DNA of 64,000 bases from Candidatus Aegiribacteria sp. (GTDB taxonomy: Bacteria > Fermentibacterota > Fermentibacteria > Fermentibacterales > JCC-6). Numbering within the stretch: position 1 is the first letter of the stretch; each line of letters opens with the position of its first letter. This document shows, piece by piece, positions 38,124-42,352 of this stretch. The notes beneath the pieces were generated by a model, which searched no databases, was not told the DNA's origin, and saw only the letters and a program-made list of their open reading frames with translations. Both the position numbers and the translations under genes were made by a program. Location: positions 1-64,000 of the forward strand of contig WTBT01000013.1 in NCBI GenBank assembly GCA_013138965.1. Reading direction: 5' to 3'.

Positions 38124-39875
38124 TTAGTAAGGCCTGATAATGTGTGGAGTAACAAATATCACAAGCTCTGTGCTTTCTTCCCGTTCGGAATTGTAGGAGA
38201 AAAGCAGATCGCCGAGCAGGGGAATGCTTCCCAGTATCGGGATGGATCTTCTGACAGTTGTATGCTTGCTTCTCATTATTCCACCGATGACCGCTGTGGC
38301 GCCGTCGTCTATCATCAGGGTTGTATTTGCGCTCTGGGTAAGGATAATCGGTTGACCGGAAGAAGTTGCCTCGCCGGAAAGCTCGCTTACAAGCGGATAG
38401 AGCTCAAGTGTTACATTGTTATCGGCATTGATATGAGGTGTAACGGTCAGCTCAACTCCAACCTTGAACATCTGTATGTATACATTCTGGCTCGGATCCA
38501 TAAGGGTCAGCGGTATTTCCTTTCCGGACATGACTGTACCGGTCATGTTGTCTATTATCGCTATCCTCGGTTCCGAAAGTATGTGTGCATGATTCTGTGA
38601 TTCAAGCATAGTAATAACCGCGTTCACATCGAACATACTGGTGATGGTACCGAAAGAGAGGGTGCCGCTCGGATCTCCCACTGCAAGGCCGCCGGAGCTC
38701 ATACCTCCGTGTAGCAGGTCGTTAGATCTGGTAAGGTTCCCCAGAGACCAGTCAATACCCATTTCGTTAGCGTAGCTGGCATCGATTTCCACCAGTTTCG
38801 CTTCTATCATTACCTGTGCGGTCGGGCTGTCCAGGATCGGAAGCAGCCTTCCTACCTCCTCGAGCTTGTAAGGTATATCCGTAATGATAAGAGAGTTTGT
38901 CCTGTCATCAATGGAGATCTGACCTCTATCGGAAAGAGCAGTAGTGAGAGCGCCGTTCAGGCTTTGCGCCGAAGCATATCTGATCACGTATATCTCAGTC
39001 TGTAGTTCCTGAAGGTTCTCCCTGTCATGACGGGTTGATGCCATCTGGCTTATCTCCGAATAGAACTTATCTCTGGGCAGTACCCTCAGAACATTACCCT
39101 GCATGCTGGCAACCAGTCCCTGAGAGTTCAGAATCGCTGTCAGAGCATCCCTCCAGCCAACATTCTGCAACCGGGCCGTAACCGAGGCGGTGTAATCTTC
39201 CGGAAGCATGATGTTCATGCCGCTCACATCCGCGATAGCCCTCATAACGGTTCTGATGCTTGCATCAACAACATCGACAGTTATCCTTCTGCCGCCGGTT
39301 CCGGACCACTCCACAGGGAAGCCGTCCTCTATCTGGCGATTGATCTCACTTATACGGATACCCCTTGTTGATGTCGCGATAGATCGCCCTGAAAGGGGCG
39401 AGTAGTCAGGTGATGACAGCGGGGCTACATCTCCGCCAGTCAGTACAGGCTCAACGTATTGAGAAGTTGTTGACCATGAAGCAAATGGTATTCCGGTCGG
39501 GTCTGTCTGCATTTCCAGAACGAGCCTGTTCCCGTCAAGAGATGCGTTGTAGTTGAGAAGCTCACCGTTAACATCGATGATTATTCTGACAATTCCGTCC
39601 GGCGGAGCTTTGTACTGACTCGTCCTTATGGACAGAACGCCTCCCCTGTTAACGGAAAAATCCATCGACGGCAGCGAATGCACCGCATCGCCAATGTCCA
39701 GAACGATCCTCATGGGATCGGTCAGGAGAAACCTTTCGTACGAAATCGCATCATCAGCGGTTAATGTGACCAGAGTCACGTCGCCGCTGGGTACTACCGA
39801 GATATCGGTAATCCTGTACGCAGCCGCTGGCACAGCCAGCAACAGCAGTAGACTACAAACGGTTAAGAGACGCAT
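38124..39875 (-). CDS. pilQ: Type IV pilus secretin PilQ
   Basis: Outer-membrane pore of the type IV pilus. It has 583 residues. A signal peptide (LLLLLAVPAAA) is followed by one AMIN domain that binds peptidoglycan (about 20-120), an STN/N0 domain near 190-240, N1-type domain near 285-360, and the secretin core with VMIEAKLVEIDASYANEMG, SEPRIAIIDNMTGTVMSG and the C-terminal GSIPLLGDLLFS and ELVIFVTPHII. The ATG at 39875 shares its A with the pilP stop (TGATG). It closes the pilus operon. Confidence 0.96.
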   Translation of the reverse strand: MRLLTVCSLLLLLAVPAAAYRITDISVVPSGDVTLVTLTADDAISYERFLLTDPMRIVLDIGDAVHSLPSMDFSVNRGGVLSIRTSQYKAPPDGIVRIIIDVNGELLNYNASLDGNRLVLEMQTDPTGIPFASWSTTSQYVEPVLTGGDVAPLSSPDYSPLSGRSIATSTRGIRISEINRQIEDGFPVEWSGTGGRRITVDVVDASIRTVMRAIADVSGMNIMLPEDYTASVTARLQNVGWRDALTAILNSQGLVASMQGNVLRVLPRDKFYSEISQMASTRHDRENLQELQTEIYVIRYASAQSLNGALTTALSDRGQISIDDRTNSLIITDIPYKLEEVGRLLPILDSPTAQVMIEAKLVEIDASYANEMGIDWSLGNLTRSNDLLHGGMSSGGLAVGDPSGTLSFGTITSMFDVNAVITMLESQNHAHILSEPRIAIIDNMTGTVMSGKEIPLTLMDPSQNVYIQMFKVGVELTVTPHINADNNVTLELYPLVSELSGEATSSGQPIILTQSANTTLMIDDGATAVIGGIMRSKHTTVRRSIPILGSIPLLGDLLFSYNSEREESTELVIFVTPHIIRPY

Positions 39876-41287
39876 CACAGACCACCTTCTTCATGTAAAC
39901 GCAGAGAATAAATGGTGGGGATCGTGGTCTCCCCTCCACCTCTTGCGCTGTAATCAACTATAACATCCTGAATTACAATAACTTCATTACTGGTAATCTC
40001 GGCAACGTGGGAATTATTGGCAAGAACAGTTCCTTCGTAGAGAATGTATGAGACACCAATTCCATCTTCAACCATGGCCTGATCACCACCGACAGGATCA
40101 AGTGTTATTCCGACCAGCCTGAATTCCTCGACCGATACGATCTCAAGACTCCTTCTCGCGTCCCTTCCCTCAGTTGAGAATTCGGTGAAGGGGTCGGGTC
40201 TGATGGAGACGGATTCATATATTCTGAATGTAGCGCTACCTGCCTGTATTATATCGTTCACGGAGTCTGCTGAGCCCTGCATTCCACCTGCGCTCTGCCC
40301 GGCCATGGAACAGGATACACGCTGTGTTTCGTAATGAGGGAGGCTTGTTTCTATTGAACCCAGATCTGTGTAGACCGCTATTCCAAGATCGTCAATAGCC
40401 CATACAGGCTGCCGGAAGCTTTCCATTGCAAACAATCTTGATGGCTCGAATGAAGGAACTTCGGCGATTATCTCTCCCGGCGACATGACTGTTGAGATAC
40501 CGTTCTCTGCCAGAACAAGACCTCCATCATACAGACGACCATCAGAATGATAATTCCATTCCCCAGGCAGGGTTCTTACGTAAATGGTGTCGTGGATGCC
40601 TATGAACAGGATATTGTCTGACGAAGCGAGAATATCTCCGTCCGGTGAGTCCTCGAACTGCCACAGTGCAACCGAGGGATCGAACAGCGCAATGCCGCCC
40701 CCCTCAAGCCCGAAGATCCAGTCCGGTCCGATCCGCTGAAGGTCGCCCGCGGGATTCAGTTCTTCAGAAGCGGTATATACAGTGAAGCCATCTTCCTCCC
40801 TGATCGCCAGATCTCCGTCATAACCCAGAATTGCTATATCATCATTACTGATCTCAAGCTCCATCGGAGAGAAACCATCAGGCAGTGATTCTGAAACAGC
40901 ATCACAGCTGTTATCGTTGAATACAAGGTATTCGCTCTCTGTAATGAATGCGGGAGTTTCACCATTCAGGTCGAAATCAACGACATCGCTTATATCTTCC
41001 AGGCAGTAAGCCTTCCACCTTCCGTCCATTCTGCTGAACCTGAGCAGGGTGCCCCCTTCGAAAAGCAGCCATACATTATCGTCTCCTGCTTCGGCCATTT
41101 TGGGAGGAGCCTGCGAAAGGGTCATTTCAATCCAGCCGTAAACATCGGAGCTGGATACCACAGTTATGGATACTCCTGGATGCTCAAGCGTTGAAGTTGC
41201 TTCATCCGTACTCTCATTACAGCCCGAAACCAGAAATACAGCTGCTGCAGTCAGAAGGGCTGTGCAAGTTAATTTTGAGATACTCAT
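39875..41287 (-). CDS. PilP-type pilus lipoprotein fused to a propeller-like N-terminal region
   Basis: 470 residues. The lipoprotein signal ends in FLVSGCNES (Cys acylated), so it sits in the inner or outer membrane leaflet. The last ~110 residues follow the PilP pattern: SIRPDPFTEF, SLEIVSVEEFRLVGI, QAMVEDGIGVSYIL, GTVLANNSHVAEITSNEVIV. PilP links PilN/PilO to PilQ. Residues ~40-325 are extra: repeated W- and G-rich beta strands (DVYGWIEMTLSQ, GPDWIFGLEGGG, SDNILFIGIHDTIYV) that look like a beta-propeller. Its role is unknown. Gene order pilMN-lipoprotein-pilO-pilP-pilQ supports the assignment. Confidence 0.83.
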   Translation of the reverse strand: MSISKLTCTALLTAAAVFLVSGCNESTDEATSTLEHPGVSITVVSSSDVYGWIEMTLSQAPPKMAEAGDDNVWLLFEGGTLLRFSRMDGRWKAYCLEDISDVVDFDLNGETPAFITESEYLVFNDNSCDAVSESLPDGFSPMELEISNDDIAILGYDGDLAIREEDGFTVYTASEELNPAGDLQRIGPDWIFGLEGGGIALFDPSVALWQFEDSPDGDILASSDNILFIGIHDTIYVRTLPGEWNYHSDGRLYDGGLVLAENGISTVMSPGEIIAEVPSFEPSRLFAMESFRQPVWAIDDLGIAVYTDLGSIETSLPHYETQRVSCSMAGQSAGGMQGSADSVNDIIQAGSATFRIYESVSIRPDPFTEFSTEGRDARRSLEIVSVEEFRLVGITLDPVGGDQAMVEDGIGVSYILYEGTVLANNSHVAEITSNEVIVIQDVIVDYSARGGGETTIPTIYSLRLHEEGGL

Positions 41288-41304: not shown

Positions 41305-41862
41305 CTATGGCTGCACGAAGGCTGAAATCGTGAAATTAGCCTCCATATTGTCGTAGCTTCCATCGGAAGCCTTTTTCTGAATTATGGTTAGTTCTGTAAC
41401 CGCGGTAAGCATAATCTGCTGAGTCAACTGATCAAGAAAAACACCAAGTCTATGAAAACGTCCGGTGAGTTGCATCTGCCATCCGTAAACCAGGAAATCC
41501 CCCTGGGTAGACGGTGGTAGCGGTGTGAGAGAATATATCTGCAAACCGCTGTTCTCAGCATTCTCCGTCAGCATATCCATTATTTCATCCTGATCGTAAG
41601 TTCTTGGAAGATATCTATCCAGTTCCGCAAGCTGCTGAGTCAGGCGGTTGATCTCCTGCTCGGTTATTGCCATATCCGATGCGGTTCCCGACTGGAGTGA
41701 ACTGAGTTCGGCCCTTTTCATATTCAGGTTTTGTTCGGCCTGCTCGATCCTCTCCTTTACTTCGGAAGAAAACTCCCTTGGATACAGGTATATCAGCGCG
41801 ACGACAAGAAGAATACCGACTGTCAGGATGTAAAACCTGGGGTCTCTGAGATAGGCATTCAT
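41305..41862 (-). CDS. pilO: Type IV pilus assembly protein PilO
   Basis: Inner-membrane protein of the alignment complex, pairs with PilN. It has 185 residues. An N-terminal TM helix (FYILTVGILLVVALIYLY) is followed by a coiled coil (about 33-85) and a ferredoxin-like periplasmic domain with ENSGLQIYSLTPLPPS and LQLTGRFHRLGVFLDQL-type core. Sequence identity in this family is low, so position in the operon is strong support. SD GGGGG precedes the ATG. Confidence 0.9.
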   Translation of the reverse strand: MNAYLRDPRFYILTVGILLVVALIYLYPREFSSEVKERIEQAEQNLNMKRAELSSLQSGTASDMAITEQEINRLTQQLAELDRYLPRTYDQDEIMDMLTENAENSGLQIYSLTPLPPSTQGDFLVYGWQMQLTGRFHRLGVFLDQLTQQIMLTAVTELTIIQKKASDGSYDNMEANFTISAFVQP

Positions 41863-41917: not shown

Positions 41918-42352
41918 TTACCTGCCGCCGGATTTGGCTGCTTCGAACATGCCAAGATTAATTGAGTACATTGTCAGTGTATCGCCGCCGGAGACGGTGA
42001 ATGTGTAATCTTCATCTCCACCGTAGAAGTACTCACCTGCAAATGTATCAAAGGCTTTAAGTGAGAAGATAACAATTCCCGAAGACCCGCCACGCACAGT
42101 GCTACCCTCTACAACCTCCGGATAGAACTGAATCTCAATCCAGAATTGACCGTTGGCATCTGTCTCGGTGACATATGTTTCCTGAGTACCTTTAGTTGAT
42201 AAACCTATACCTTCGGCTCTTATAGTCTCCGTTGAATCAGTGTAAATGAGCCCTGTTACGTAAACCCGGGTTTTGTCCATCCCCACTGGATTACATCCTG
42301 CAACTGCCAGTACAACCAGCAGACCTAAAACTGAAATCGCAAATATTTTCAT
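41918..42352 (-). CDS. Small lipoprotein within the pilus operon, carboxypeptidase-regulatory-like fold
   Basis: 144 residues. Signal and lipobox: LLVVLAVAGCNP. The mature part has a beta-sandwich pattern resembling CarboxypepD_reg/transthyretin-like domains: RVYVTGLIYTDS, ETYVTETDANGQFWIEI. No PilP or PilF features are seen. The ATG at 42352 overlaps the pilMN stop as ATGA and GGGGAGG lies six bases upstream, so it belongs to the operon and probably assists pilus assembly or anchors it. No named homologue. Confidence 0.8.
   Translation of the reverse strand: MKIFAISVLGLLVVLAVAGCNPVGMDKTRVYVTGLIYTDSTETIRAEGIGLSTKGTQETYVTETDANGQFWIEIQFYPEVVEGSTVRGGSSGIVIFSLKAFDTFAGEYFYGGDEDYTFTVSGGDTLTMYSINLGMFEAAKSGGR

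Follow-up and report, generated by a model that had tools for sequence, protein, structure and literature searches.

PilP is a core part of a nanomachine found across bacteria, in which it is taken as a small connector. The locus described here raises the question of whether a lipid-anchored protein of 470 residues, encoded in the pilus operon of a Candidatus Aegiribacteria genome, is such a PilP, what its additional region consists of, and what that region would do there. A sequence-only reading of the surrounding DNA (64,000 nt, positions 1 to 64,000 of contig WTBT01000013.1; hereafter the window) had proposed that a propeller-like region precedes a PilP domain in this protein. The ORF is present and lies on the minus strand, which that reading had left unstated; the plus strand of the same interval is full of stops in the same frame (Table 1). 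At its N terminus we found a lipobox-like sequence, LVSGC, containing an invariant Cys23, and the product is accordingly a putative lipoprotein, as would be expected of a PilP. The residue following Cys23 (G in 24 of 27 aligned sequences, and N, D and E in one each) does not discriminate between an inner- and an outer-membrane anchor. The alignment used throughout comprises 27 rows, the fragments L008, L017, L029 and L030 having been omitted, and the MAGs in which close relatives of the window protein occur carry the titles Candidatus Aegiribacteria, Sabulitectum, Fermentibacter, Fermentibacteria and Hyd24-12, with 90% identity to the nearest relative; the window is accordingly assigned to Fermentibacterota, an uncultured phylum. 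On the evidence given below, the window protein is almost certainly a PilP of two-domain architecture, with an extra β-propeller inserted between the lipid anchor and the PilP arm.

Table 1. Features of the pilus operon and of the propeller-PilP gene in the window
Feature	Coordinates	Strand	Basis or remark
pilQ, secretin with AMIN, STN and Secretin_N	38124..39878	-	Sole secretin match of the genome
Propeller-PilP gene, 470 aa putative lipoprotein	39875..41287	-	ORF, ATG start, relatives, synteny
PilP (HR-type) β-domain, residues 385-466	39890..40135	-	Structure matches, profile, alignment
Arm with motif FRIYESVS.RPDPF, residues 351-384	40136..40237	-	Alignment; 17/34 residues invariant
Linker, residues 311-350, mostly disordered	40238..40357	-	AlphaFold2, alignment; A329-G330-Q331 invariant
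β-Propeller, residues 46-310	40358..41152	-	AlphaFold2, VIA-align, Foldseek
Signal peptide and lipobox, residues 1-23	41219..41287	-	Cys23 invariant, 27/27 aligned sequences
pilO	41305..41862	-	PF04350, E 5.8e-12
lipo144, small conserved lipoprotein gene between pilMN and pilO	41918..42352	-	Conserved position in related loci
pilM-pilN, single-frame fusion of 630 aa	42349..44241	-	PilM_2 at residues 38-376; remainder putatively PilN

The C-terminal 120 residues were modelled separately (mean pLDDT 82.0) and compared with known structures. Foldseek placed chains titled PilP, from Pseudomonas and Neisseria, at ranks 2-5 and 7; the chains at ranks 1 and 6 (3jc8 chain Pa and 4av2 chain M) belong to pilus-machine entries, and we take them to be PilP. 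Using VIA-align against 3jc8, 2y4x, 2lc4, 2y4y and 2ivw, we obtained Z-scores of 10.7-8.1 at 21-28% identity, the top pairs being 3jc8_Pa (Z 10.7; rmsd 4.4 with 84 aligned) and 2y4x_A (Z 9.9; rmsd 2.3 with 78 aligned). Pfam and NCBIfam scans of the window protein alone returned neither a PilP name nor a PF04351 match, the protein lying below the gathering cut-off, and across the 27 members PF04351 gave 10 weak matches, the best at E 0.0063. We rejected the missing name as evidence against PilP, as structure and a custom profile agree. This profile was built from Fermentibacterota C-termini only and run in the reverse direction, against ORFs of ≥80 residues on the pilM strand of 100 pilM loci from other lineages. 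Its matches at E≤10 totalled 43. Of the 88 ORFs found immediately before a secretin, it matched 39 at E<0.01, demonstrating sequence homology to PilPs of other lineages. With structure and reverse profile both pointing to PilP, we read the PF04351 model as falling short of Fermentibacterota, and the C-terminal PilP domain that had been claimed, here of ∼120 residues, is upheld on independent grounds.

The comparison loci were obtained from a census of 385 genomes (the 'relatives' sample, an uneven sample of bacteria), 319 of which have PilM, and were drawn from the best PilM matches listed. From these matches 104 non-Fermentibacterota places were taken, and 100 of the 104 sequences were used (without G134, G197, G312 and G334); at least G073, G090, G230 and G279, with little or no downstream sequence, and G214, with an internal stop, had been left out beforehand. 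A secretin ORF was found in 91 of the 100 loci and an ORF preceding it in 88, although by eye some of the latter are not PilP, being PilO in L168, L169, L200 and L203 and wrong frames in L135, L138 and L175.

The fold of the C-terminal domain is also that of the HR domain of GspC, an inner-membrane protein of the type II secretion system (T2SS), to which VIA-align gave a Z of 8.1 (3oss). Identity with GspC was rejected, as this would call for a T2SS secretin of its own, whereas the single secretin match of the window genome sits in the pilMNO operon. Given that lone secretin, and with no PF04351 match elsewhere in the genome, the propeller-PilP is likely to be the sole PilP, and most probably the one that functions in the genome's single pilus machine.

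For the full-length protein, AlphaFold2 (27 sequences) gave a mean pLDDT of 71.6. Confidence was low at residues 1-47 and 317-375, and most ten-residue blocks across residues 61-300 averaged 80-97; at a pTM of 0.58, the placement of the propeller relative to the PilP domain is undefined by the model. Residues 46-310 form a closed ring of four-stranded blades, comprising ∼27 strands in a regular pattern, in which the N-terminal strand closes the last blade; counted from the strand list, this corresponds to seven blades of ∼38 residues. A Foldseek search with this region returned 497 PDB chains at E≤0.001, these being β-propellers, and in VIA-align, WD40 proteins and streptogramin B lyase could be superposed over ∼250-260 residues with Z reaching 18.5, while 988 of 988 aligned chains had Z≥8. 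As many of the VIA-align rows lie within <1 Z of each other, the fold is supported but a family is not. The propeller-like fold proposed from the letters is thus confirmed by model and structure searches alike; an extra region is indeed present before the PilP domain, but its ordered part, at ∼265 residues, is slightly shorter than the ∼290 first suggested. Neither the full profile nor the propeller profile detected a significant relative in sequence searches of the PDB; non-significant matches of the latter were to 4a2l (E 0.17), representing periplasmic sensor propellers, and to PorZ (5m11, E 0.036). BamB and PorZ, both of which are in the Foldseek list, are envelope β-propeller proteins within large envelope machines; these are other machines, neither protein has a PilP domain, and the resemblance to the window propeller is at the fold level only. 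The BamB propeller has eight blades.

These matches bear on the possibility that the propeller links the pilus machine with peptidoglycan or with factors of outer-membrane assembly, comparable to the scaffold lipoprotein BamB or the T2SS scaffold GspB. BamB (8orr, 3prw) is among the Foldseek matches, weak PQQ_2/BamB matches occur in 2 of the 27 members (best E 0.001) and a weak TIGR03300 match in one (E 0.015), whilst the solved Dickeya GspB (4wfw, Z 5.6) has an HR-like fold in common with the C-terminal domain. The likeness to BamB is non-specific, however, since every propeller scores alike in the structural alignment, and an AMIN domain, a type that binds peptidoglycan, is already present on PilQ. 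As such, we consider an envelope anchor unlikely.

The genomic context agrees with the assignment to PilP. The genes are ordered pilMN, lipo144, pilO, propeller-pilP and pilQ on the minus strand, and this order recurs in related loci on every contig of sufficient length, such that the propeller-PilP gene occupies the PilP slot between pilO and pilQ. Two neighbouring features go with it, the pilM-pilN fusion and lipo144. At pilM, 40 of the 41 Fermentibacterota genomes having a PilM match show an open frame of ≥562 aa, and among the matches listed only one frame from another lineage is of comparable length (G273, 579 aa). The domain scan gave no PilN family match in the part of the pilM-pilN product outside PilM_2; we infer that the second half is PilN because of where it lies, how it is conserved and a hydrophobic stretch visible by eye. 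The lipo144 product, which mostly reads C-N/D-P-V/F-G after its signal and belongs to no named family, is conserved in place across Fermentibacterota. An outgroup genome (G144, locus L170) has two lipo144-like genes between pilN and pilO (E 7e-10 and 3e-9), with pilM and pilN separate and an ordinary PilP of 177 residues. The most parsimonious interpretation is that lipo144 predates both the propeller and the pilM-pilN fusion, which arose later on the Fermentibacterota stem; alternatively, lipo144 may have been transferred horizontally. Between the window and distant relatives, identity is ∼37-43% for the PilN part, ∼31-39% for lipo144, ∼50% for PilO and ∼58-68% for PilM and PilQ, making the PilN part and lipo144 the fastest-diverging products of the operon.

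We then asked how far the fusion extends. With the full-length profile, matches were obtained in 41 of the 42 Fermentibacterota genomes, including 24 of 24 of high quality, and all nine of nine genera, which argues that the fusion is not a product of chance. In 36 of the 42 a single frame spans its full length, and we read the remaining matches as cuts at contig ends or, in G026, as a split into two frames. In the sole miss, G037, pilM lies 1.8 kb from the contig end in the reading direction, roughly where propeller-pilP would start, so a contig break is likely to account for it. Across the 385 genomes the propeller profile recovered the same 41 Fermentibacterota and one weak match (G044, E 0.0034) among the 343 genomes of other lineages; it matched none of the ORFs of the 100 other-lineage pilM loci at E≤10, and tblastn against plasmids gave no match. 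A search for the same fusion in other PilP-containing proteins, which the sequence-only reading had suggested, thus found it in Fermentibacterota and in none of those 100 loci. The normal PilP size of ∼170 residues assumed there also fits, as the 88 ORFs preceding a secretin have a median length of 188 aa, these lengths being upper bounds counted from the first possible start codon.

Only one of the 88 ORFs reaches ≥400 residues, namely a protein of 528 aa (L171:4179-5762, + strand) just before a secretin gene. Like the window protein it is a long PilP in the PilP slot, but its additions are domains of a secretin's N terminus (AMIN, STN, Secretin_N). Two PilO-PilP gene fusions (L142:1708-2661 and L197:2087-3019, both + strand, with the PilP portion of L197 scoring under the Pfam cut-off) likewise combine PilP with an added N-terminal domain at the same operon position, the added part being PilO. 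A PilP-like protein with a DUF4398-like C-terminal extension was also observed (L188:2431-3336, + strand), with both matches below Pfam cut-offs. PilP therefore gains extra domains elsewhere too, and among the genomes sampled the propeller is seen in Fermentibacterota only. Canonical PilP (PF04351; P. aeruginosa 2LC4/2Y4X, N. meningitidis 2IVW and the M. xanthus chain in 3JC8) shares with the window protein the lipobox, a flexible RDPF-like arm, the C-terminal HR-type β-domain and the gene slot between pilO and pilQ, but has no ∼265-residue β-propeller between lipid anchor and arm. The RDPF stretch lies N-terminal to the folded domain in many PilPs and was seen in those of other lineages; we take the RPDPF arm of the window protein as its counterpart.

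The fusion is thus real and phylum-wide in Fermentibacterota, and no account of a propeller-PilP fusion was found in the open-access literature, to which our search was confined, subscription journals being outside its scope. Papers listed for PilP together with propellers were mostly unrelated or dealt with PilY1, which is also the protein meant in the propeller passage of PMC4471445. Accompanied as it is by the pilM-pilN fusion and lipo144, the fusion amounts to a remodelling of the pilus alignment complex across the phylum, and suggests that Fermentibacterota build the pilus base with an additional scaffold.

In order to gain insight into the role of the propeller, we compared its conservation with that of the PilP core over the 27 sequences. 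Mean pairwise identity is 37.9% for the propeller versus 77.5% for the core (minimum 16.5 versus 63.4%), and 12 of 265 positions are invariant versus 39 of 82. Such rapid divergence might be expected of a neutral passenger, fused once and retained without a function of its own. Against this, dN/dS for the propeller is 0.076-0.154 (median 0.103) in all 34 pairs with usable dS, out of 66 pairs from 12 sequences, indicating that the domain is maintained by purifying selection, and it is retained in one full-length frame in most genomes of the phylum, as described above; we regard a passenger as very improbable. The corresponding median for PilP is 0.052 (46 of 66 pairs usable). The propeller is therefore under purifying selection yet evolves fast. 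That a propeller was added to PilP and is kept by selection in nearly all sampled members implies that the alignment complex can be rebuilt, and makes Fermentibacterota PilP a natural test of which of the connector's tasks are essential and which dispensable.

The 12 invariant propeller residues (G51, W52, G79, W91, L154, G158, P215, W244, G250, P282, W296 and G302) are all W, G, P or L, i.e. residues of the fold, and no polar residue is invariant among the 265 positions. Nothing in the propeller thus hints at an active site, and the absence of an invariant polar residue that would point to catalysis or a shared ligand favours a scaffold, a role to which we assign an even chance. The earlier suggestion had been of a sensor or a brace, and, judged from these conserved residues, 'brace' would fit the propeller better. 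As a sensor, the propeller would bind a periplasmic ligand or stress cue and signal to the PilN/PilO/PilM cage, tuning extension or retraction; its attachment to a complex that contacts the motor and the non-significant resemblance to periplasmic sensor propellers and PorZ noted above are in keeping with this, whereas no common binding pocket is visible across the 27 sequences. A sensor is in our estimation improbable. The fast surface evolution of the propeller would also fit a sensor of variable ligands or a simple spacer.

Overall, the best explanation, and one that we hold to be fairly probable, is that the protein is the PilP of the sole secretin-based pilus machine found, enlarged by a propeller that acts as a structural collar or brace. 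In studied species, canonical PilP contacts PilNO through its arm and PilQ through its C-terminal domain (PMC5805733; PMC4471445), the protein being located in the inner membrane (PMC4471445). As conservation in the window protein is highest in the C-terminal domain and the RPDPF arm, these docking contacts have presumably been retained: by analogy, the C-terminal domain would dock on the N0 domain of PilQ and the arm would bind PilN-PilO. Since the propeller precedes the arm, it would be expected near the membrane, beside the PilN/PilO cage, with one per PilP copy, and the periplasmic place within the pilus alignment complex proposed in the sequence-only reading appears right alongside the fusion itself. 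There, the propeller could form a passive protein-binding collar, brace or docking platform around the cage, its likely contacts being the other fast-evolving periplasmic parts, namely the PilN domain and lipo144. About a dozen propellers would not fit within the width of the PilP ring proper and would lie in a wider ring outside it; here we assume some twelve PilP copies and, from this stoichiometry and the size of a propeller, a ring of roughly 17-20 nm. A more specific proposal, which we offer tentatively and consider somewhat doubtful, is that about a dozen lipid-anchored, PilP-borne propellers pack together with lipo144 around the fused PilM-PilN cage as a periplasmic collar known from no described pilus machine. 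A collar of this kind predicts an extra periplasmic ring in cryo-tomography.

Away from the pilMNOPQ operon, the window genome (G000) contains six PilB/PilT-type ATPase matches, on contigs C41, C45 and C49, of which three are long frames (602-884 aa) and three are short (359-403 aa).
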